Below, piece after piece: positions 386 to 23,964 of a DNA stretch of 24,488 nucleotides. The DNA lies in assembly GCA_025774805.1 (NCBI GenBank), contig JALGZR010000056.1:1-24488 (forward strand). The letters run 5' to 3'. Numbering within the stretch: position 1 is the stretch's first letter; each line of letters begins with the position of its first letter. The notes below the pieces were generated by a model. The model worked only from the letters and a program-made list of their open reading frames with translations. It was not told the origin of the DNA and made no database searches. The DNA is from a bacterium. Its GTDB lineage: Bacteria > ARS69. Position numbers and translations under genes: made by a program.

Positions 386-2184
386 CCGACCTCTCCCGGA
401 TCCGCAACTTCTGCATCATCGCCCACATCGATCACGGGAAGTCGACCCTCGCCGATCGACTTCTCGCGATCACGGGGACGCTCACCCCCGAGCAGGCGCA
501 GGGGCAGGTCCTCGACACGATGGATCTGGAGCGGGAGCGGGGCATCACGATCAAGGCCCACGCGATCCGGATGATCCACCGCGCCGGCGCAGGCGAGGCG
601 TACGTCCTCAACCTGATCGACACGCCGGGCCACGTCGACTTCTCGTACGAGGTCTCCCGCAGTCTGGCCGCGTGTGAGGGAGCGCTCCTGATCGTGGATG
701 CGAGCCAGGGGGTGGAGGCGCAGACGATCTCCAATCTCCACCTCGCGCTCGACGCCGATCTGGAGATTCTCCCCGTGATCAACAAGATCGACTTGCCGGG
801 GGCGCGGCCCGACCAGGCCGCACGCCAGGTTCACGAGCTGGTCGGCGGGGATCCCGACGAAATCCTCCGGATCAGCGCCAAGGACGGCCTCGGAGTGGAT
901 CGGATCATCCCGGCGATGATCGAGAGAATCCCTCCCCCCCGGGGGGACGTCGAAGCTCCGCTCCGCGCCCTCATCTTCGACTCGGCGTTCGATCAGTACC
1001 GCGGTGCGATCGCGTACGTGCGGGTCGTCGAAGGGGTGATCCGCCCCGGGATGACGATCCGGTTCTTCTCGAACGGGAGGGAGTATCCGGTCGACGAGGT
1101 CGGCGTGCTTCAGCTCCGCATGGTCCCGAGGCGAGAGCTGCACGCGGGCGAGGTCGGCTACGTCGTCGCGGGCGTCAAGAACATCGCGGACGCGAAGGTC
1201 GGCGACACAATCACCGACGCCGCCCGGCCCGCGAGCGATCCGCTTCCCGGCTATGTGGACGCGAAGTCGATGGTGTTCTCCGGCTTCTACCCGGTCGACA
1301 GCGAGAACTTCAGCGATCTGCGAGACGCGCTCGACAAGCTCCGACTCAACGACGCGGCGTTCCACTACGAGCCCGAGACCTCCGCCGCCCTCGGGTTCGG
1401 ATTCCGCTGCGGATTCCTCGGAATGCTGCACCGGGAGATCGTGCAGGAGCGCCTCGAGAGGGAGTACGATCTCGGACTCATCGCCACGGTGCCCACGGTC
1501 CCCTACCGGGTGTGCCGCAGGGATGGCTCGGTGCGGGAGATCGAGAGCCCCGCGCAGCTTCCTCCCTTCGCGGAGATCGGGCACATCGAGGAGCCGATCA
1601 TCGCCGCGGAGATCGTGGTGCCGACCGACTACATCGGGAGCATCATGAAGATCGGCCAGGAGCGGCGCGCCACGCAGACGGGGATGGAATCCCTCGATCC
1701 TGGCCGAGTGATCATGCACTTCGAGTTTCCGCTGGCCGAGGTCATCTACGATTTCTACGACCGGCTGAAGTCGATGACGAGAGGGTACGCGAGCTTCGAC
1801 TACGAACACGCCGGATACCGGGAGGCGCCGGTGCAGAGGCTCGACATCCTGCTCAACGGAGATCCGGTCGACGCGCTCTCGATCATCGTGCACCGGGACA
1901 AGGCGGCCGAGTGGGGGCGGAGTCTCTGCCGGAAACTCAAGGAGGTCATTCCCCGACAGCAGTTCTCGATCGCCATCCAGGCCAGCGCCGGCAACCGGAT
2001 CATCTCCCGGGAGACGATCTCGCCTCTTCGCAAGAACGTCACCGCGAAGTGCTACGGCGGCGACATCACCCGAAAGCGCAAGCTCCTCGAACGGCAGAAA
2101 GAGGGGAAGAGGCGAATGAAGAAAGTGGGGTCGGTGAATGTCCCCCAGGAGGCCTTCCTCTCGGTGCTGAAGATCGAACGCTAG
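382..2184 (+). CDS. lepA: Elongation factor 4, ribosome back-translocating GTPase
   Basis: LepA (EF4) is a translational GTPase acting on the 70S ribosome. From the ATG at 382 it is 600 residues, matching the family's usual length of about 600. The GTPase motifs are visible: AHIDHGKST (G1, residues 14-22), DTPGHVDF (G3), NKID (G4) and SAK (G5). The LepA-specific C-terminal domain is intact, with CYGGDITRKRKLLERQKEGK and the VPQEAFLSVL ending. The ATG overlaps the lepB stop, which decides the start; the longer open frame upstream is only the shadow of lepB. The TAG stop at 2182-2184 lies inside the terminal CTAG of the 184-bp repeat that follows, so the repeat edge supplies the stop codon. hemW follows in the same direction. 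Confidence 0.98.
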   Translation: MTDLSRIRNFCIIAHIDHGKSTLADRLLAITGTLTPEQAQGQVLDTMDLERERGITIKAHAIRMIHRAGAGEAYVLNLIDTPGHVDFSYEVSRSLAACEGALLIVDASQGVEAQTISNLHLALDADLEILPVINKIDLPGARPDQAARQVHELVGGDPDEILRISAKDGLGVDRIIPAMIERIPPPRGDVEAPLRALIFDSAFDQYRGAIAYVRVVEGVIRPGMTIRFFSNGREYPVDEVGVLQLRMVPRRELHAGEVGYVVAGVKNIADAKVGDTITDAARPASDPLPGYVDAKSMVFSGFYPVDSENFSDLRDALDKLRLNDAAFHYEPETSAALGFGFRCGFLGMLHREIVQERLEREYDLGLIATVPTVPYRVCRRDGSVREIESPAQLPPFAEIGHIEEPIIAAEIVVPTDYIGSIMKIGQERRATQTGMESLDPGRVIMHFEFPLAEVIYDFYDRLKSMTRGYASFDYEHAGYREAPVQRLDILLNGDPVDALSIIVHRDKAAEWGRSLCRKLKEVIPRQQFSIAIQASAGNRIISRETISPLRKNVTAKCYGGDITRKRKLLERQKEGKRRMKKVGSVNVPQEAFLSVLKIER

Positions 2185-2364
2185 CCCGGACCATTCATGA
2201 AGGATCTACTACGATCACCGATACGCTCCACCGGACGGGCGTCCTCGGGATCCGTACCCTGCGACGTATCGTCGAGATACGCCTCGGGTCCGAACCCCTG
2301 CGGGTGCCCGTCCGGTGGGCGTCTCCGCGATCTCGTGACGATCTTCACGAATGGTCCGGGCTAG
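2181..2364 (+). repeat. 184-bp nested inverted-repeat element, copy 1
   Basis: A near-palindromic element fills the whole lepA-hemW gap. Its ends are inverted repeats: CTAGCCCGGACCATTC at 2181-2196 recurs in reverse complement at 2349-2364, and 19 of the first 20 bases pair. A second, inner inverted repeat is perfect over 13 bp (CCACCGGACGGGC at 2228-2240 with its complement at 2306-2318). A small central hairpin pairs 2265-2270 with 2276-2281. The same element occurs in reverse orientation at 7534-7717, alignable over 184 bp without gaps (my count: 32 differences overall, 7 in the 113-bp core 2235-2347). No transposase gene is present. The hemW frame runs open through it, but the differences between copies do not favour synonymous changes, so I do not call it coding. 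Confidence 0.88.
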
Positions 2365-2366
2365 CC

Positions 2367-3548
2367 TTGACCGAGCCGACTTCCGCTTCCCCTCGCTCTT
2401 CCGGGTCCCCGTTCGGGCTCTACGTGCACCTCCCCTTCTGCCGCTCCCGCTGTCACTACTGCGCGTTCTTCTTCGTGGTGGGTCGCGCGGAGCTCCGGGA
2501 GGACTACCGGTCGGCTCTGGAGCGGGAGATCGACGGGTGGGCGAACGATCCCCGCTGGGCGGGTCGGCCGGTCGAATCGGTCTACTTCGGGGGCGGAACC
2601 CCGAGCCTGATGGAGCCGGCCGCGGTCGACCGCCTCGTGAAACGGGCGGACCTGCGATTCGGCCTCCTGCCCGGGGCGGAGATCAGCCTCGAGGCGAACC
2701 CCGACGATCTCGAGCTCTCCCGGCTCGAGGGATTTCGCGCGGCCGGCTGCAATCGCCTCTCCTTGGGGTGGCAATCGACCCGGCGGGAGAACCTGCGGGC
2801 GCTGACCCGCACGCACGGACCCGAGGACAACCGCGCCGCCCTGGAGCGCGCCCGGGACGCCGGATTCGGCAACGTGGGCGTGGATCTCATCTTCGGTCTG
2901 CCCGGCCAGACCTCGGACTCGTGGCTCGGTGAGCTCGACGAGGTCGCCGCCTCCGGTCCCGAGCACGTGAGCGCGTACGAGCTCACGTTCGAGGAGGGCA
3001 CGCGTCTCACCCGACGCCACCGAGAGGGTCGCTTCGCCGTCCCCGACGACGACGAGCGGGCCCGCATGTTCGAGGGCGCGGAGGACGTTCTCCAAGGCCA
3101 CGGGATCCGCCGCTACGAGATCTCCAACTTCGCCCGGCCCGGTCACGAGTGCGTCCACAACGTCTCCGGATGGAAGGGGGGAGACGTGCTGGGGGTCGGG
3201 GCGAGCGCCGCGTCGCACTTCGGGGCGAGCCGATGGACGAACGTCGCCGACCTCGACGACTACGTGGCCCGAGCCGGGAGCGACGAGGGTGTGATCTCGG
3301 AGATCGAGGAGCTGGACGAGACGACCTGCACCGCCGAGGAGCTCTACCTCGGTCTCCGGACGACGGAGGGGGTCCTCCTCGGCGGGCGGATCGACCGGCT
3401 CCCCCAAGCGGAAGGGCGCCGGCTGCTCGAGGTGCTCGACCGGGCGCAGGCGTCGGGCTGGCTCCTCCGCGAAGGAGACCGAGTGCGTCTCACCCGCGCC
3501 GGGCGGCTCTTCGCGGACACCGTATTCGACCAGCTTCTCGGAGGTTAG
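2367..3548 (+). CDS. hemW: HemW-type radical SAM protein (haem chaperone / coproporphyrinogen III oxidase-like)
   Basis: From TTG 2367 this is a 393-residue radical SAM protein of the HemN/HemW group. The [4Fe-4S]-binding CxxxCxxC is CRSRCHYC (Cys25, Cys29, Cys32), following GLYVHLPF. YFGGGTPSL, a Gly-rich VDLIFGLPGQT segment and YEISNFARPGHECVHN follow in family order. The family's His-Asn-x-x-Tyr-Trp motif appears here as HNVSGW, with Gly replacing Tyr. The short length and lack of an N-terminal extension favour HemW, which binds haem and delivers it to cytochromes, over true oxygen-independent CPDH; this is known of the family, not seen here. No ATG/GTG start fits well. TTG 2367 is three bases past the repeat and has no clear Shine-Dalgarno, so the start is uncertain. 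The gene probably lies in the lepB-lepA-hemW operon. Confidence 0.88.
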   Translation: MTEPTSASPRSSGSPFGLYVHLPFCRSRCHYCAFFFVVGRAELREDYRSALEREIDGWANDPRWAGRPVESVYFGGGTPSLMEPAAVDRLVKRADLRFGLLPGAEISLEANPDDLELSRLEGFRAAGCNRLSLGWQSTRRENLRALTRTHGPEDNRAALERARDAGFGNVGVDLIFGLPGQTSDSWLGELDEVAASGPEHVSAYELTFEEGTRLTRRHREGRFAVPDDDERARMFEGAEDVLQGHGIRRYEISNFARPGHECVHNVSGWKGGDVLGVGASAASHFGASRWTNVADLDDYVARAGSDEGVISEIEELDETTCTAEELYLGLRTTEGVLLGGRIDRLPQAEGRRLLEVLDRAQASGWLLREGDRVRLTRAGRLFADTVFDQLLGG

Positions 3549-3560
3549 AAGGCCTTCTCC

Positions 3561-3590
3561 TTGGTCTCCTCCGGCCCACTCTGGTAAGCT
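3561..3590 (+). promoter_or_regulatory. Weak candidate promoter for the M28 peptidase gene
   Basis: TTGGTC (3561-3566), 18 bp, TAAGCT (3585-3590) lies in the gap between hemW and the peptidase gene. It matches the sigma70 consensus only partly. Just upstream, a 12-bp perfect palindrome AGAAGGCCTTCT (3547-3558) overlaps the hemW stop and could be a small terminator stem, though no T-run follows it. Beyond a Shine-Dalgarno CGGAGG at 3707-3712, I see nothing else in this gap. Confidence 0.25.
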
Positions 3591-3719
3591 GGAGCGGAAG
3601 CTCCCGAACCCGATCGCCCACCCCCCACCTTCGCACTCCGCTTCGGGGCCGTCGGGGGAGACGATTCCGAAGCCCGGATAACGCCCGGACGCCCAGGGAT
3701 CTCCCCCGGAGGCCTGACC

Positions 3720-6221
3720 ATGAACCGGACCCGCCGAGCGACCTGGACCCTCGGGCTGTTCTGCGCCGCGATCGTCATCCTCGCCCCCGCCGCGTTCGCC
3801 TCTCCCGCTCTCGTCTCCATTGAGGAACCGGAGATCGGAACCGCCGGGGAGCTGCTCGCGGACGGGATCACCGTCGTGCGCGACCTCGAGCGCTATCTTC
3901 TCGCCACGGTCGAGCCGGAAGGAGAGTCGCGTCTCGAGTCCCGGGGTCTTCGCTACCGGGTGCTGGCTCCCACGATCGAAGGTCGCACGTTCTACACCGT
4001 GACCGCGCGCACGACCGCGTTCGTCGAAGCGTCACCCGGGGTCCGGTTGCTGCGCTTCGACGGTTACGACGCCGTGATCGAGGCGTCGCCCGCGGACGCG
4101 GAGAAGGTCGCGGAGGCCGGGTTCGAGATCGCGCGGGTCTTCCTGCGTCCGATCCGGGTCGTCGACCGGGACCCGCCGCAGCGCCTCTCCGGACTCCGCG
4201 CCGGCGACCCCGCCATCCAGGCGCTCGTGAACGACGTGTCCACGACCGCGATCGACGCCTCGGTCCAACGGCTTCAGAACTTCGTCACCCGGTACGCGGC
4301 CCACGACAGCTGCCAGGCGGCGGCGAACTGGATCAAGGCGGAGTTCGAGTCGTTCGGGATCGACAGCGTCTTCTTCCACTCCTTCCACCCGGCATACAAG
4401 GACAACGTCGTCGCCGTCATTCCCGGGAAGGGGAATCCCGCGAAACAGGTCGTGATCGGCGGCCACTACGATTCGATCACGTCCGACCACAACAACTGCC
4501 CGGGCGCCGATGACGACGCCTCGGGTACCGCCTGCGTCATCGAGTGCGCGCGGGTGCTCGCCGGCACCGACTTCGACTACACGCTCGTGTTCATCGCCTT
4601 CGGCGGGGAGGAGCTGGGTCTCTACGGGAGCGAAGGATACGCGGCCGACGCCGCGGCCCGGGGCGACGACATCATCGGGATGGTCGCCGTCGACATGATC
4701 GGATACGTCGCCGGCGGGGACGCCATCGACCTCGACATCGTCGACAACGCGAGCTCGGACTGGCTGCGGGATCTCATCATGTCGACCGCGGCCGACTACG
4801 TCCCCGAGCTCACCGTCGTCGACGGCTCGCTTCCCGGGGGGGCGAGCAGCGATCACGCCTCGTTCTGGGCGCACGGGTACGACGCGATCCTGTTCTTCGA
4901 GGACACGGGCAACTACAGTCCCTATATCCACACGACGAGCGACGTGGTCGGGGTGAGCTACAACAACCCGACGCTGGCCCTCCGGTCGGTGAAAGCGGCG
5001 GTGGGGTTGATCGCCACGATGGCGCGGCCGTTCACGATCTCCATCACTCACGATCCGCTCCCCGACACCGAGGACACCTCGAATCCGTACCGCGTAGCGG
5101 CCACGATCGTCTCCGCGAGCCCGCTCGAGCCGGACTCCCTCCTCGTGCGCTACGCGACGGGTGGACCGGCGACGGCCGTGACGATGACCCCGACGGTCAC
5201 GCCCGACGAGTACGAGGCCTACATTCCGGCCCAGTCCGGCGGCACGTTCGTGGACTACTGGCTGATCGCCGGCGACACGGTCGGGAACCGCGTGACCGAT
5301 CCCGAGGGGGCGCCGGCCTCGTCACACCGGTTCTTCGTGGGGACGATCACCGCCGCGGTCACCGACGAGTTCGAGACGGAGAGCGGATGGACGGCGGGCG
5401 CCCCCGGAGACGGAGCGACGACCGGGAGCTGGGAGAGGGGAGACCCGCACGGAACCTACTCGGGCAGCATCCTCGTCCAACCCGAGGACGATCACACGGC
5501 CGCGCCCGGGATCCGGTGCTGGGTGACGGGCAATGCCGCCGGAGCGGGCCACGGCGACGACGACGTGGACAACGGAAAGACCACGCTCTTGAGCCCGATC
5601 TACGATCTCTCGTCGTACACGAACGCGAGCGTGCGGTACTACCGCTGGTACACGAACGACACGGGAGCCGGCCCGGAGACGGACGACTGGGTCGTCGACA
5701 TCTCCACGAACGGAGGGGGGAGCTGGTCGAATGTCGAGACCCTCGGGTCGAGCGACCGGAGCTGGACCCTCGTCGAGTGGGACATCGGAGCAAACGTGGA
5801 CCTGACATCGCAGATGCAGTTCCGCTTCATCGCGACCGACGACTCTCCCGGGTCGATCGTCGAGGCGGGCGTCGACGACTTCTCGATCGTCGTCTACCAG
5901 GAGGGCACGACCCCGGCGCCCTGGCCGCTCGCCGCGGCCGAGCACCTGCTTCTCCACCCGGCGAGGCCGAATCCGTTCACCGATCGGACGGCCCTGCGAT
6001 TCCGCGTGCCCGAGCCCGGACGTCCGGTCTCGCTCTCGATCTACGGGGTCGGCGGGCGACGTCTCGCCCGGCTCCTCAACGGGGTGCCGATGGTGGGAGA
6101 ACAGGTCGTCTGGTGGGACGGGCGCGATCACCGGGGACAGAGGGTCGCGAGCGGGATCTACTGGGTGCGGCTGGAGACCGAGGACGGGACCCGGTCGCGG
6201 AAAGTGACGCTTCTCAGATAG
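3720..6221 (+). CDS. Secreted M28-family zinc metallopeptidase with FlgD/T9SS-like C-terminal domain
   Basis: An exported aminopeptidase-type protein of 833 residues. Residues 1-28 form a signal peptide (basic start, hydrophobic core, AFAS cleavage region). Residues about 30-170 look like a propeptide. The M28 domain (about 180-440) has the expected dizinc ligands: His249 in GGHYDS, Asp265 in PGADDDASG, Glu297/Glu298 in FGGEELGLYGS, Asp325 in VDMIGY and His404 in HTTSD. Two beta-rich domains follow (about 445-545 and 550-730), the second resembling a jelly-roll/MAM-like fold with DDFS near its end. Residues about 745-833 carry an NPF motif and end in WDGRDHRGQRVASGIYWVRL, the FlgD-Ig/type-A sorting-like fold common in FCB-type bacteria. 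CGGAGG at 3707-3712 supports the ATG. It is probably monocistronic, with a strong hairpin following. The substrate is unknown. Confidence 0.9.
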   Translation: MNRTRRATWTLGLFCAAIVILAPAAFASPALVSIEEPEIGTAGELLADGITVVRDLERYLLATVEPEGESRLESRGLRYRVLAPTIEGRTFYTVTARTTAFVEASPGVRLLRFDGYDAVIEASPADAEKVAEAGFEIARVFLRPIRVVDRDPPQRLSGLRAGDPAIQALVNDVSTTAIDASVQRLQNFVTRYAAHDSCQAAANWIKAEFESFGIDSVFFHSFHPAYKDNVVAVIPGKGNPAKQVVIGGHYDSITSDHNNCPGADDDASGTACVIECARVLAGTDFDYTLVFIAFGGEELGLYGSEGYAADAAARGDDIIGMVAVDMIGYVAGGDAIDLDIVDNASSDWLRDLIMSTAADYVPELTVVDGSLPGGASSDHASFWAHGYDAILFFEDTGNYSPYIHTTSDVVGVSYNNPTLALRSVKAAVGLIATMARPFTISITHDPLPDTEDTSNPYRVAATIVSASPLEPDSLLVRYATGGPATAVTMTPTVTPDEYEAYIPAQSGGTFVDYWLIAGDTVGNRVTDPEGAPASSHRFFVGTITAAVTDEFETESGWTAGAPGDGATTGSWERGDPHGTYSGSILVQPEDDHTAAPGIRCWVTGNAAGAGHGDDDVDNGKTTLLSPIYDLSSYTNASVRYYRWYTNDTGAGPETDDWVVDISTNGGGSWSNVETLGSSDRSWTLVEWDIGANVDLTSQMQFRFIATDDSPGSIVEAGVDDFSIVVYQEGTTPAPWPLAAAEHLLLHPARPNPFTDRTALRFRVPEPGRPVSLSIYGVGGRRLARLLNGVPMVGEQVVWWDGRDHRGQRVASGIYWVRLETEDGTRSRKVTLLR

Positions 6222-6262
6222 GGTCGGAGCCTCGCCGGTCCCTCGCCGGGGCCGGCCCGCGT

Positions 6263-6300
6263 CTCCCCCGGCCCGCGCCGCTGGCACCGGGCCGGGGGAG
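6263..6300 (+). terminator. GC-rich hairpin after the peptidase gene
   Basis: A perfect 13-bp stem, CTCCCCCGGCCCG (6263-6275) with its reverse complement at 6288-6300, closes a 12-base loop. It lies about 40 bases past the peptidase stop and about 20 bases before the hrcA -35 box. No T-run follows, so it is either a GC-only terminator or an insulator between the two transcription units. Confidence 0.6.
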
Positions 6301-6318
6301 GTGCGCCGCCCGCCCCCC

Positions 6319-6347
6319 TTGACTCGCCGCCCGATGGTTCCTATCTT
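6319..6347 (+). promoter_or_regulatory. Sigma70-type promoter of the hrcA-grpE-dnaJ operon
   Basis: TTGACT (6319-6324), 17-bp spacer, TATCTT (6342-6347). The predicted transcription start at about 6354 falls at the edge of the CIRCE operator, the usual geometry for HrcA repression. This also rules out any hrcA start upstream of this site. Confidence 0.8.
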
Positions 6348-6354
6348 CCCGCGA

Positions 6355-6382
6355 CTGGCACTCCATCCCCCCAGAGTGCTAA
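6355..6382 (+). promoter_or_regulatory. CIRCE operator (HrcA binding site)
   Basis: The right arm GAGTGCTAA (6374-6382) matches the CIRCE consensus exactly. The left arm CTGGCACTC (6355-6363) matches TTAGCACTC at 7 of 9 positions. The spacer counts as 10 bases (6364-6373) rather than the canonical 9. HrcA binding here would block the promoter directly upstream and so autoregulate the operon. Confidence 0.88.
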
Positions 6383-6471
6383 CCACGGAGTGCGAACACC
6401 CGGTCCCGAAGGCGGCCGCGTGGCCGCCTCGAAATCCGAGCCGAGGCCGGGAGATCCGGCCGGATGATGCC

Positions 6472-7527
6472 GTGACGCGTTCTTTCTCGCCCAGCGCCCC
6501 CGAGGTCTCCGACCGCGAAAAGACGGTCCTGGGGACCGTGGTCCGAGGGTATGTCGAGTCCATGCACGCGGTGGGGTCGCGCTGGGTGGCCCGTCACTCG
6601 GGGCTCGGTCTCTCTCCCGCGTCCATCCGGAACTGCATGATGGACCTCGAGGAGAAGGGCTATCTGACGCATCTCCACACCTCCGGAGGGCGGCTGCCCA
6701 CGAATGCGGGTTACCGGCTCTTCGTCGACGAGCTGATGAAGCGCGTCTCCGTCGGGCGCAAGGTCGAGCGGTCCATCGAGGAGGCCCTGATCCGCGATCG
6801 CTATGGCAGTCTGGAGGGTCTCCTCGACGCGACCTGCACGCTCCTCGGACGGTTCTCCGATCAGCTCTCGGTGGTGCTCTCCCCTCGCTACGATCAGAGC
6901 GTGGTCGACCGGATCGGGCTGAACCAGGTCGACGAGCGGCAGCTTCTGGTGGTCTTCCGGATGACCTCGGGGCTCGAGCGGGCGGTCGTCGTCGCCAGCA
7001 ACGTCGAGATCGGCTCCGACGACCTGCGGGAGACCCTGCGGGTGATGAGCTCGATGGCGCGGGGGAAGACCCTCGGGGAGCTGCTCGAGACCCGGGACGA
7101 CGAGGAGTCCCGGGTGCGGCTGCGCGGACTGGCTCTCGCTCCCGCGGTCTACGCGGGAGCCGAGGAGCTGCGGAACGGAGAGAGCGATTCCCACTTCCAT
7201 CTGTGGGGGACTTCGAACATCCTCGCGCAGCCGGAGTTCGCGGATCCGAATCGGCTGCGGGACGTCCTGCGGGCGCTCGAGGCCAAGGAGGTCCTGACCG
7301 GCCTCTTCGAGCCGACACGGCACCGGAGGAAGGTGTCGATCACCATCGGCGACGAGATTCCCGTAGCGGAGCTGCGCTCGTGCAGTATCGTCGCCAATTC
7401 CTACCGCTTCGGCGTCTTCGGGGGAACGGTGGGCGTGATCGGCCCGACTCGGATGCCCTACGAGTACGTGGTCGCCCTCGTGGACCACGTCGCCGAGACG
7501 ATCGGCAAGGCGTTGGTTCGTCACTGA
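6472..7527 (+). CDS. hrcA: Heat-inducible transcription repressor HrcA
   Basis: HrcA is the repressor that binds CIRCE and keeps class I heat-shock genes off until GroEL can no longer fold it. The N-terminal winged helix is clear: SDREKTVLGTVVRGYV, then SPASIRNCMMDLEEKGYL and the family signature HTSGGRLPTNAGYRLFVDEL. The central dimerisation/GAF-like region and the ending GVIGPTRMPYEYVVALVDHV are also typical. GTG 6472 gives 351 residues, close to the family norm; the open frame extends upstream to 6301 but would start before the promoter and CIRCE. No strong Shine-Dalgarno precedes the GTG (GGGAG at 6450-6454 is too far away). It is the first gene of the operon, followed by the second 184-bp repeat and grpE. 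Confidence 0.95.
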   Translation: MTRSFSPSAPEVSDREKTVLGTVVRGYVESMHAVGSRWVARHSGLGLSPASIRNCMMDLEEKGYLTHLHTSGGRLPTNAGYRLFVDELMKRVSVGRKVERSIEEALIRDRYGSLEGLLDATCTLLGRFSDQLSVVLSPRYDQSVVDRIGLNQVDERQLLVVFRMTSGLERAVVVASNVEIGSDDLRETLRVMSSMARGKTLGELLETRDDEESRVRLRGLALAPAVYAGAEELRNGESDSHFHLWGTSNILAQPEFADPNRLRDVLRALEAKEVLTGLFEPTRHRRKVSITIGDEIPVAELRSCSIVANSYRFGVFGGTVGVIGPTRMPYEYVVALVDHVAETIGKALVRH

Positions 7528-7533
7528 GACACG

Positions 7534-7717
7534 TTCACCCGGACCGGTAATGAAGATCGTCGCGAGATTGCGGAGACGCCCACCGGACGGGCACCCACGG
7601 GAGTTCGGACCCGAGGCGTATCTCGACGATTCGTCGCAGGGTACGGACCCCGAGGACGCCCGTCTGGTGGCGTGGTTCCGCCATCGCGGCAGATCGTTCA
7701 CGATCGGTCCGGGTTGA
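7534..7717 (-). repeat. 184-bp nested inverted-repeat element, copy 2 (inverted)
   Basis: The reverse complement of this stretch aligns without gaps to 2181-2364. The core 7551-7663 differs from copy 1 at 7 of 113 positions by my count. The outer parts are only about 60-67% identical, yet remain self-complementary around CCCGGACC (7538-7545) and GGTCCGGG (7706-7713); 15 of the outer 20 base pairs are kept. The inner stem has one mismatch relative to copy 1, and the central hairpin loses one pair. The element begins six bases after the hrcA stop and ends exactly where the grpE Shine-Dalgarno GGAGGAG (7718-7724) begins, so it fills the operon gap. Confidence 0.88.
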
Positions 7718-7730
7718 GGAGGAGCCGAGC

Positions 7731-8432
7731 TTGGCGCGGAAGAAGAGCGGAAAGGCCGGCCCGAAGGGCCGGAAGAAGAAGAGAGACGAGGCGAACGTCA
7801 CCGAAAACTCCGGCCCCGTGAAGGAGGAGGCGTCCGGGAGCGCGACCGGATCGGGTGGGGATCCCCCCGTCGCCACCGAGGAGGCAGAGGACGGAATCGA
7901 TTCCTCCGAGGACTCTTCCGCGGCCACCGAGACCGCGACCGAGACGGTGGAGATCCCGCTCGAGGAACGGCTCGAGCGGGCCGAGCGCGACGCGGCCGCC
8001 GCCGCGGACCGGGCGCTCCGCACCCTCGCCGAGTTCGACAACTACCGCCGCCGAATGCAGAGAGAGCTCCAGAGCGCACGGGATCGAAGTGCGGCCGAGG
8101 TGCTGACCGAGACGCTCGATGTCGTGGACAACTTCGACCGGGCCCTGGAGCACGCGGGAGAGGGCGTGCCCGAGGCGTTTCTCGAGGGCATGCGTCTCGT
8201 GGCGCGCGGGCTCCACGATCTCCTGGAGCGCCGGGGCGTCGCGCGGATCGAGACCGTGGGCACGCCGTTCGACCCCGAGCTGCACGACGCGCTCACGAGC
8301 CAGCCCTCGGAGGACGTGGAGCCGAACACGATTCTGACGGAGATCCAGTCCGGTTACCGTATGGGTGATCGGGTGCTCCGCCCGGCCAAAGTGATCGTGG
8401 CCCGCATCGTCGAGGTCGAGAAGGACCCATGA
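7731..8432 (+). CDS. grpE: GrpE, nucleotide exchange factor of DnaK
   Basis: GrpE releases ADP from DnaK in the cytoplasmic Hsp70 cycle. The TTG start at 7731 is set by GGAGGAG (7718-7724) six bases upstream and gives 233 residues. The first 75 or so residues are a low-complexity, Lys- then Glu/Ser/Thr-rich extension. A long helical/coiled-coil part follows, with [10 protein letters not shown] and [11 protein letters not shown], then the C-terminal beta domain with [12 protein letters not shown] and a [17 protein letters not shown] ending, all family hallmarks. The stop overlaps the dnaJ ATG by four bases (ATGA), indicating coupling. The gene lies downstream of hrcA, in the CIRCE-controlled operon, separated from it by the 184-bp repeat. 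Confidence 0.96.
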
Positions 8433-23789: not shown

Positions 23790-23866
23790 GGGCCCATAGC
23801 TCAGTCGGTCAGAGCAACCGGCTCATAACCGGTCCGTCCTTGGTTCGAGTCCAAGTGGGCCCACCA
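23790..23866 (+). tRNA. tRNA-Met (anticodon CAT)
   Basis: A complete cloverleaf: acceptor GGGCCCA/TGGGCCC, D stem GCTC/GAGC, anticodon stem ACCGG/CCGGT with loop CTCATAA (anticodon CAT), T stem CTTGG/CCAAG with TTCGAGT, and an encoded CCA end. The paired G1-C72 and the absence of three G-C pairs in the anticodon stem argue for elongator rather than initiator Met. A lysidine-modified Ile(CAT) cannot be fully excluded. Confidence 0.93.
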
Positions 23867-23886
23867 GAGGTCGCGGATCGCGGATC

Positions 23887-23964
23887 GGGCGATTAGCTCA
23901 GTTGGTCCAGAGCGCCCGCCTCACACGCGGGAGGTCACTGGTTCAAGTCCAGTATCGCCCACCA
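23887..23964 (+). tRNA. tRNA-Val (anticodon CAC)
   Basis: A complete cloverleaf: acceptor GGGCGAT/ATCGCCC, D stem GCTC/GAGC, anticodon stem CCCGC/GCGGG with loop CTCACAC (anticodon CAC), T stem ACTGG/CCAGT with TTCAAGT, and encoded CCA. It lies 20 bases after tRNA-Met, separated by two tandem GCGGATC units, and is probably co-transcribed with it. Confidence 0.94.

Follow-up and report, generated by a model that had tools for sequence, protein, structure and literature searches.

IS1380-type ends and a widely conserved core in a 176-bp palindromic repeat, a probable MITE from a bacterium of the ARS69 lineage

Transposons of the IS1380 family measure about 1.65 kb, have ends of the form CCCGGA(T/C).(A/T)TTCA.. 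and insert at YTAR words with a 4-bp target duplication. Bacterial MITEs are short, non-coding, extragenic elements of high copy number bounded by terminal inverted repeats (TIRs) and target-site duplications (TSDs); the text of a 2024 review on them does not mention IS1380 (PMC10969869). Two other groups of multicopy palindromes have been described. A study of Geobacter metallireducens reports 24 intergenic multicopy "short RNA elements" with a central palindrome, GRCGTAGCGCTGCTACGCC, which also occur in other deltaproteobacteria and were interpreted as RNA (Aklujkar 2009, PMC2700814). MRSC-65-2 has a long covarying stem, a conserved repeat, UYCCGG, and more than 20,000 examples, dozens per genome, spread over diverse phyla, and was proposed to be a selfish element possibly acting as DNA (Narunsky 2024, PMC11109978). 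Here we analyse a repeat found in two copies between housekeeping genes, each of which is very probably a MITE, a palindromic transposon of 176 bp that has no coding capacity, bears IS1380-type ends and is moved by an IS1380-family transposase.

Two palindromic copies and their relatives in the genome

The window, by which we mean the whole stretch of 24,488 nucleotides analysed here, contains two inverted copies of the repeat, both of subfamily A: copy 1 at 2185-2360 (+) and copy 2, which is more diverged, at 7538-7713 (-). A preliminary description had given them as self-complementary elements of 184 bp. Copy 1 (2181-2364, +) and copy 2 (7534-7717, -) do align without gaps over 184 columns, but the element proper, which opens with CCCGG and closes with CCGGG, covers 176 bp; on either side, the outer 4 bp derive from the target. 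The two copies are 85% complementary over 176 nt and each folds into one long hairpin, with predicted energies of -116.4 kcal/mol (z -9.4) for copy 1 and -103.8 kcal/mol (z -5.4) for copy 2, a stability equalled by 0/200 shuffles in either case. The inner 13-bp repeat, CCACCGGACGGGC, is as first described, perfect in copy 1 and with one mismatch in copy 2.

The left terminal inverted repeat of copy 1, CCCGGACCATTCATGAA (2185-2201, +), matches IS1380 ends, and its right counterpart reads CCCGGACCATTCGTGAA on the minus strand (2344-2360). Between them, at approximately 2258-2287 (+), lies a conserved core with an apical palindrome, CCTGCGACGTATC-GTCGA-GATACGCCTCGGG, recognised by cross-genome covariation. 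The target-site copies on the two sides are both CTAG (2181-2184 and 2361-2364), the left one including the TAG stop codon of lepA (2182-2184). Copy 2, which is the older of the two, lies between the non-identical flanks TTCA (7534-7537) and TTGA (7714-7717). NCBIfam models confirmed the neighbours that had been named, lepA and hemW for copy 1, hrcA and grpE for copy 2; hrcA extends to 7527 and grpE begins at 7731. Elsewhere in the window, the interval between hemW and hrcA encodes an 833-aa aminopeptidase LapA-like protein with a weak type IX secretion sorting-like C-terminus (3720-6221), and a tandem pair of tRNA genes is found at 23790-23961.

Used as a query on its own genome (G000; 5.1 Mb in 284 contigs), copy 1 retrieved copy 2 at E = 3e-52 and, overall, 22 copies of nearly full length along with about 15 partial ones. 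The family total for subfamilies A (176 bp) and B (177 bp), which alignments separate by single-base indels, is about 38 copies. A covariance model further revealed a subfamily C, roughly 45 elements about 172-175 bp long (L278-L297; L028:197-369; L006:1332-1503), with ends reading CCTGCAT.TCTCACCAG, which likewise occupies CTAG sites, often at stop codons. With the E-value, these dozens of further copies exclude a chance resemblance and a repeat limited to the window, and they agree with the many-copied, short dispersed element that had been predicted, their length being constant at 176-177 bp. A search pattern covering the first 18 bases, with one fully ambiguous position and up to 3 mismatches allowed, gave 77 matches in the genome versus 5 with a reversed control. 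The 17-bp terminal inverted repeats are paired in 95.7% of cells and covary; within this genome, 7 pairs of the terminal arms show double changes, in 20 cells versus 4 by shuffling.

Many half-length copies stop exactly at a 41-bp core common to all copies. At L027:1613-1634 this core flanks both sides of a 20-N scaffold gap, and the contig ends at the start of C8 and the end of C22 also fall inside the element, indicating that the repeat breaks the assembly; the half-length copies, considered as a separate form, are therefore probably assembly breaks. True short derivatives that keep both ends also exist (L034, L036, L038, L039, L077), and two tiny ones, L040:1286-1348 (63 bp) and L077:1160-1218 (59 bp), consist of both terminal repeats and almost no interior. 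Since the L077 derivative has CTAG on both sides, the core may be dispensable for transposition. At L018:1681-1760, L026:1654-1750 and L006:1332-1683, A/B copies directly adjoin C copies or derivatives with one CTAG in common, an arrangement that represents side-by-side insertion of two subfamilies.

Target sites, gene context and the link to IS1380

In the genome of the window and in G039, which belongs to a different family, the two flanks of a copy are identical in 21/52 pairs versus 10.6 expected by permutation. Five of these identical pairs are not CTAG (0.85 expected, p = 0.0009), namely TTAA twice, CTTG, CAAG and CTGG, three of which are non-palindromic and thus direct duplications rather than extensions of the inverted repeats. 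Eleven other genomes gave 15 identical pairs out of 41 (7.3 expected, p = 0.0003 overall); taken alone, their non-CTAG pairs fall short of significance (3 versus 1.2 expected, p = 0.11). The 4-bp YTAR duplications hence exceed permutation expectation, as is characteristic of a MITE, and many flanks, those of copy 2 included, lack an exact duplication.

A gene stop codon lies inside the target copy of 18 of the 33 copies in the window's genome, a share that does not differ from the CTAG background: outside the elements, 140 kb contain 23 CTAG words, 2 in coding sequence, 11 at stops and 10 in intergenic DNA. With CTAG nearly absent from coding sequence, insertions land on stops or between genes. 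The proposed confinement of the copies to same-strand gaps, by contrast, was not borne out. Co-directional neighbours surround 24/32 copies versus 74/98 background gene pairs, with genes predicted by an in-house codon-usage caller whose output was checked against those of the window, and selection for such gaps was rejected for want of any excess. The filled operon gaps are explained by target choice and the purging of genic insertions, with no same-strand preference. Subfamily C was found between convergent genes at 9 of the 19 loci examined versus 13/98 background pairs (p = 0.002).

The terminal repeats, CCCGGA..ATTCATGA, match the ends of IS1380 elements, and ends of this kind are present in Tectomicrobia (L053), Nitrospira (L055) and Acidovorax (L056). 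The terminal repeats, searched for in other genomes, pointed us to a contig of Candidatus Tectomicrobia (G035) whose transposase scores as IS1380 family (DDE_Tnp_1_4, NF033539); the ends of this element are CTAA followed by CCCGGATTATTCACGA on one side and, beyond a nested ISKra4, TCATGAATAATGCAGG followed by CTAG on the other. Ends of this kind, flanked by CTAG, also bound the IS1380 copies of Nitrospira and Acidovorax, and a complete 1,629-bp IS1380 in G033 has perfect CCCGGATATTTCATAA repeats with TTAG on both sides. The ISKra4-family transposase (UPF0236-like) nested in the Tectomicrobia copy maps to L049:1981-3282. A contig of a Micromonosporaceae MAG (L054) encodes an IS1380 transposase that shares 71% identity with its Tectomicrobia counterpart, possibly through recent transfer or because the contig is mis-binned.

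The element is thus short, multicopy and non-coding, bears terminal inverted repeats and has its ends in common with an autonomous transposon, IS1380, a homology that identifies it as a MITE. It had been presented as matching no recognised repeat. While it is not REP- or BIME-like and has no Rfam match, homology of its ends to those of a known transposon family contradicts the proposal of an unrelated new kind.

Where IS1380 copies are resident, their ends resemble the MITE variant of the same genome (16/16 in G359, 15 in G275, 15 in G208, 14 in G351); this likeness supports, short of proof, a pairing of IS1380 with the MITE, the variants being found in some other genomes too. An IS1380 transposase is present in 7/13 genomes with IS1380-ended elements versus 42/373 others (p = 3e-4, the grouping having been made after the elements were seen), and is intact in G275. 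In G198, the ends of intact IS1380s differ from those of the MITE, and G039 has no IS1380 transposase despite dozens of element copies. The sole IS1380 transposase match in the genome of the window is a C-terminal fragment, far from any repeat and with no terminal repeats around it; no intact parental transposase was found there, and an autonomous copy was rejected, paired terminal repeats at IS distance being absent. MITEs typically, but not necessarily, share their genome with an intact parental transposase. The interior of the element matched none of the IS1380 interiors examined. Carriage by viruses or plasmids was considered and rejected: all 40 pattern matches in viral contigs were due to chance by an inverted-repeat test, and a terminal-sequence search of plasmids returned chance matches only.

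We propose that a DDE transposase of the IS1380 family, provided in trans, would bind the terminal repeats of ~17 bp, move the element and insert it at a YTAR site, preferably CTAG, with duplication of 4 bp. On a TAG stop, the duplicated CTAG would recreate the stop codon and spare the upstream gene; the other tolerated insertions would be those in intergenic DNA, CTAG being nearly absent from the coding sequence of this GC-rich genome. The palindrome may be maintained by templated repair, by selection on folded or symmetric DNA, or by both. This mechanism is well supported; mobility, and mobilisation by an IS1380 transposase in the element's own lineage, we infer from sequence comparisons.

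A core conserved across bacteria and rival readings

Exact paired terminal repeats were found in 4 of the 386 genomes sampled, and the relationship between elements extends beyond their ends: interiors are similar between a copy of the window's genome and G039 (z = 7.2) and between G039 and G208 (z = 5.3), other comparisons being weak. A covariance model built from these elements has matches in 33/386 bacterial genomes (E <= 0.01), the strongest of them full-length and mostly 174-178 bp, the weakest partial and perhaps due to chance. The ends are of the IS1380 type (CCCG/CCTG) in 13 of the 33 genomes, mostly at YTAR words. The core is joined to unrelated ends in G260, G047 (which has two end types), G002, G299, G297 and G134, examples being GGCTGTTGAAAAAGG in G134 and GAGCCAATTGCAAAATT in G260, and the interiors of these other-ended elements exceed shuffles in their similarity to several IS1380-ended members. 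A core conserved across phyla to this degree exceeds what a local MITE would show.

It is conceivable, and we suggest it tentatively, that the element is a pan-bacterial mobile DNA hairpin whose core is maintained as DNA, the ends being swapped to suit whichever transposase is resident. The core, consisting of the apical palindrome TC[GA]ACG-stem-loop-stem-CGCCT and internal motifs, might then be a functional structured-DNA module joined to different transposon ends, the IS1380 type being one case of several; core rather than ends would persist, perhaps by way of a putative host replication or repair factor. The unrelated ends, the interior similarity and a length that stays mostly at 174-178 bp across distant families argue for such a module, as does the behaviour of the apical stem described below; drift of the ends with compensatory change could nevertheless look alike.

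Across 23 sequences, 97% of the apical stem is paired, with double changes in all 6 pairs, versus 18-41% in controls slid by 1 to 3 columns, and none of its 138 cells is G-U; the alignment was hand-cut around the stem, which tilts the paired percentage towards structure and leaves the absence of wobble unaffected. A-C mismatches in the arms are not rarer than G-U, a comparison that lends no support to selection acting on RNA. Watson-Crick covariation without G-U fits a DNA-level palindrome better than RNA, and we read the palindrome as being kept as DNA, via templated correction, selection, or both.

The same observations make it improbable that the repeat is a structured non-coding RNA or a cis-regulatory hairpin (or a terminator) that spread among operons and persists because of an RNA function. 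Such a role would suit the strong fold energy, the covariation of the arms, the term short RNA elements applied to the related Geobacter family (PMC2700814) and the finding that the core strand has the direction of transcription in 18 of the 24 A/B copies with codirectional neighbours in the window's genome (p = 0.02). This bias, however, is absent in G039 (2:6) and in subfamily C (4:3), no terminator-like site was found, and Rfam covariance models gave no family match at gathering score. An origin from tRNA, suggested by a T-loop-like GGGTTCGAGCCC in subfamily B, was rejected as well, there being no Rfam tRNA match and the segment pairing within the long hairpin.

We consider it very unlikely that the element is a MITE of another DDE family with a YTAR-like preference, such as IS5, for which CTAG/YTAR target words are reported as well, given that in several genomes its ends agree with those of IS1380 copies, each host's variant with its own. 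Scarcely credible is a REP/BIME-type repeat mobilised by a RAYT (Y1) transposase, palindromic, extragenic and many-copied as such repeats are, because the genome has no Y1_Tnp domain, insertion of the IS200/IS605 type leaves no target duplication, and REP/BIME units measure 20-40 bp and lack TSDs, which a 176-bp element with terminal repeats and 4-bp target duplications contradicts.

Significance and comparison with known systems

The MITE identification gives an anonymous repeat a mechanism, with IS1380-type ends, a CTAG target and a landing on stop codons that is harmless to the upstream gene, and would tie repeats noticed separately (the Geobacter elements and possibly MRSC-65-2) to one transposase family. 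If the ends prove exchangeable, bacteria would share a widespread DNA hairpin module with a conserved core; it is this core, present across phyla with differing ends, that deserves pursuit. In the open PMC literature, we found no paper linking the element to IS1380 or CTAG, and text searches with repeat fragments returned no relevant published sequence match.

The closest relatives on the transposon side are IS1380 elements, with which the repeat shares the form of its ends, the YTAR target and the 4-bp duplication; it differs in having no transposase and in its length of 176 bp. It resembles other bacterial MITEs in being short, non-coding, extragenic and of high copy number with TIRs and TSDs (PMC10969869), but it does not represent a recent deletion within a local IS, its core being conserved across distant families.

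The short RNA elements reported from Geobacter in 2009 are probably an earlier sighting of part of this superfamily, as repeats that had no explanation. Compared by eye, their palindrome, GRCGTAGCGCTGCTACGCC, matches the apical core, for instance GACGTAG...CTACGCC in G351; the main text of that report mentions neither ends nor target duplication nor a transposon link (PMC2700814). The main text on MRSC-65-2 names no IS family or target site, and the UYCCGG repeat, as described there, is not consistent in the copies studied here (PMC11109978). The long covarying stem, the many copies and the spread over diverse phyla described for MRSC-65-2 are all seen in the present elements, and MRSC-65-2 may belong to the same superfamily.
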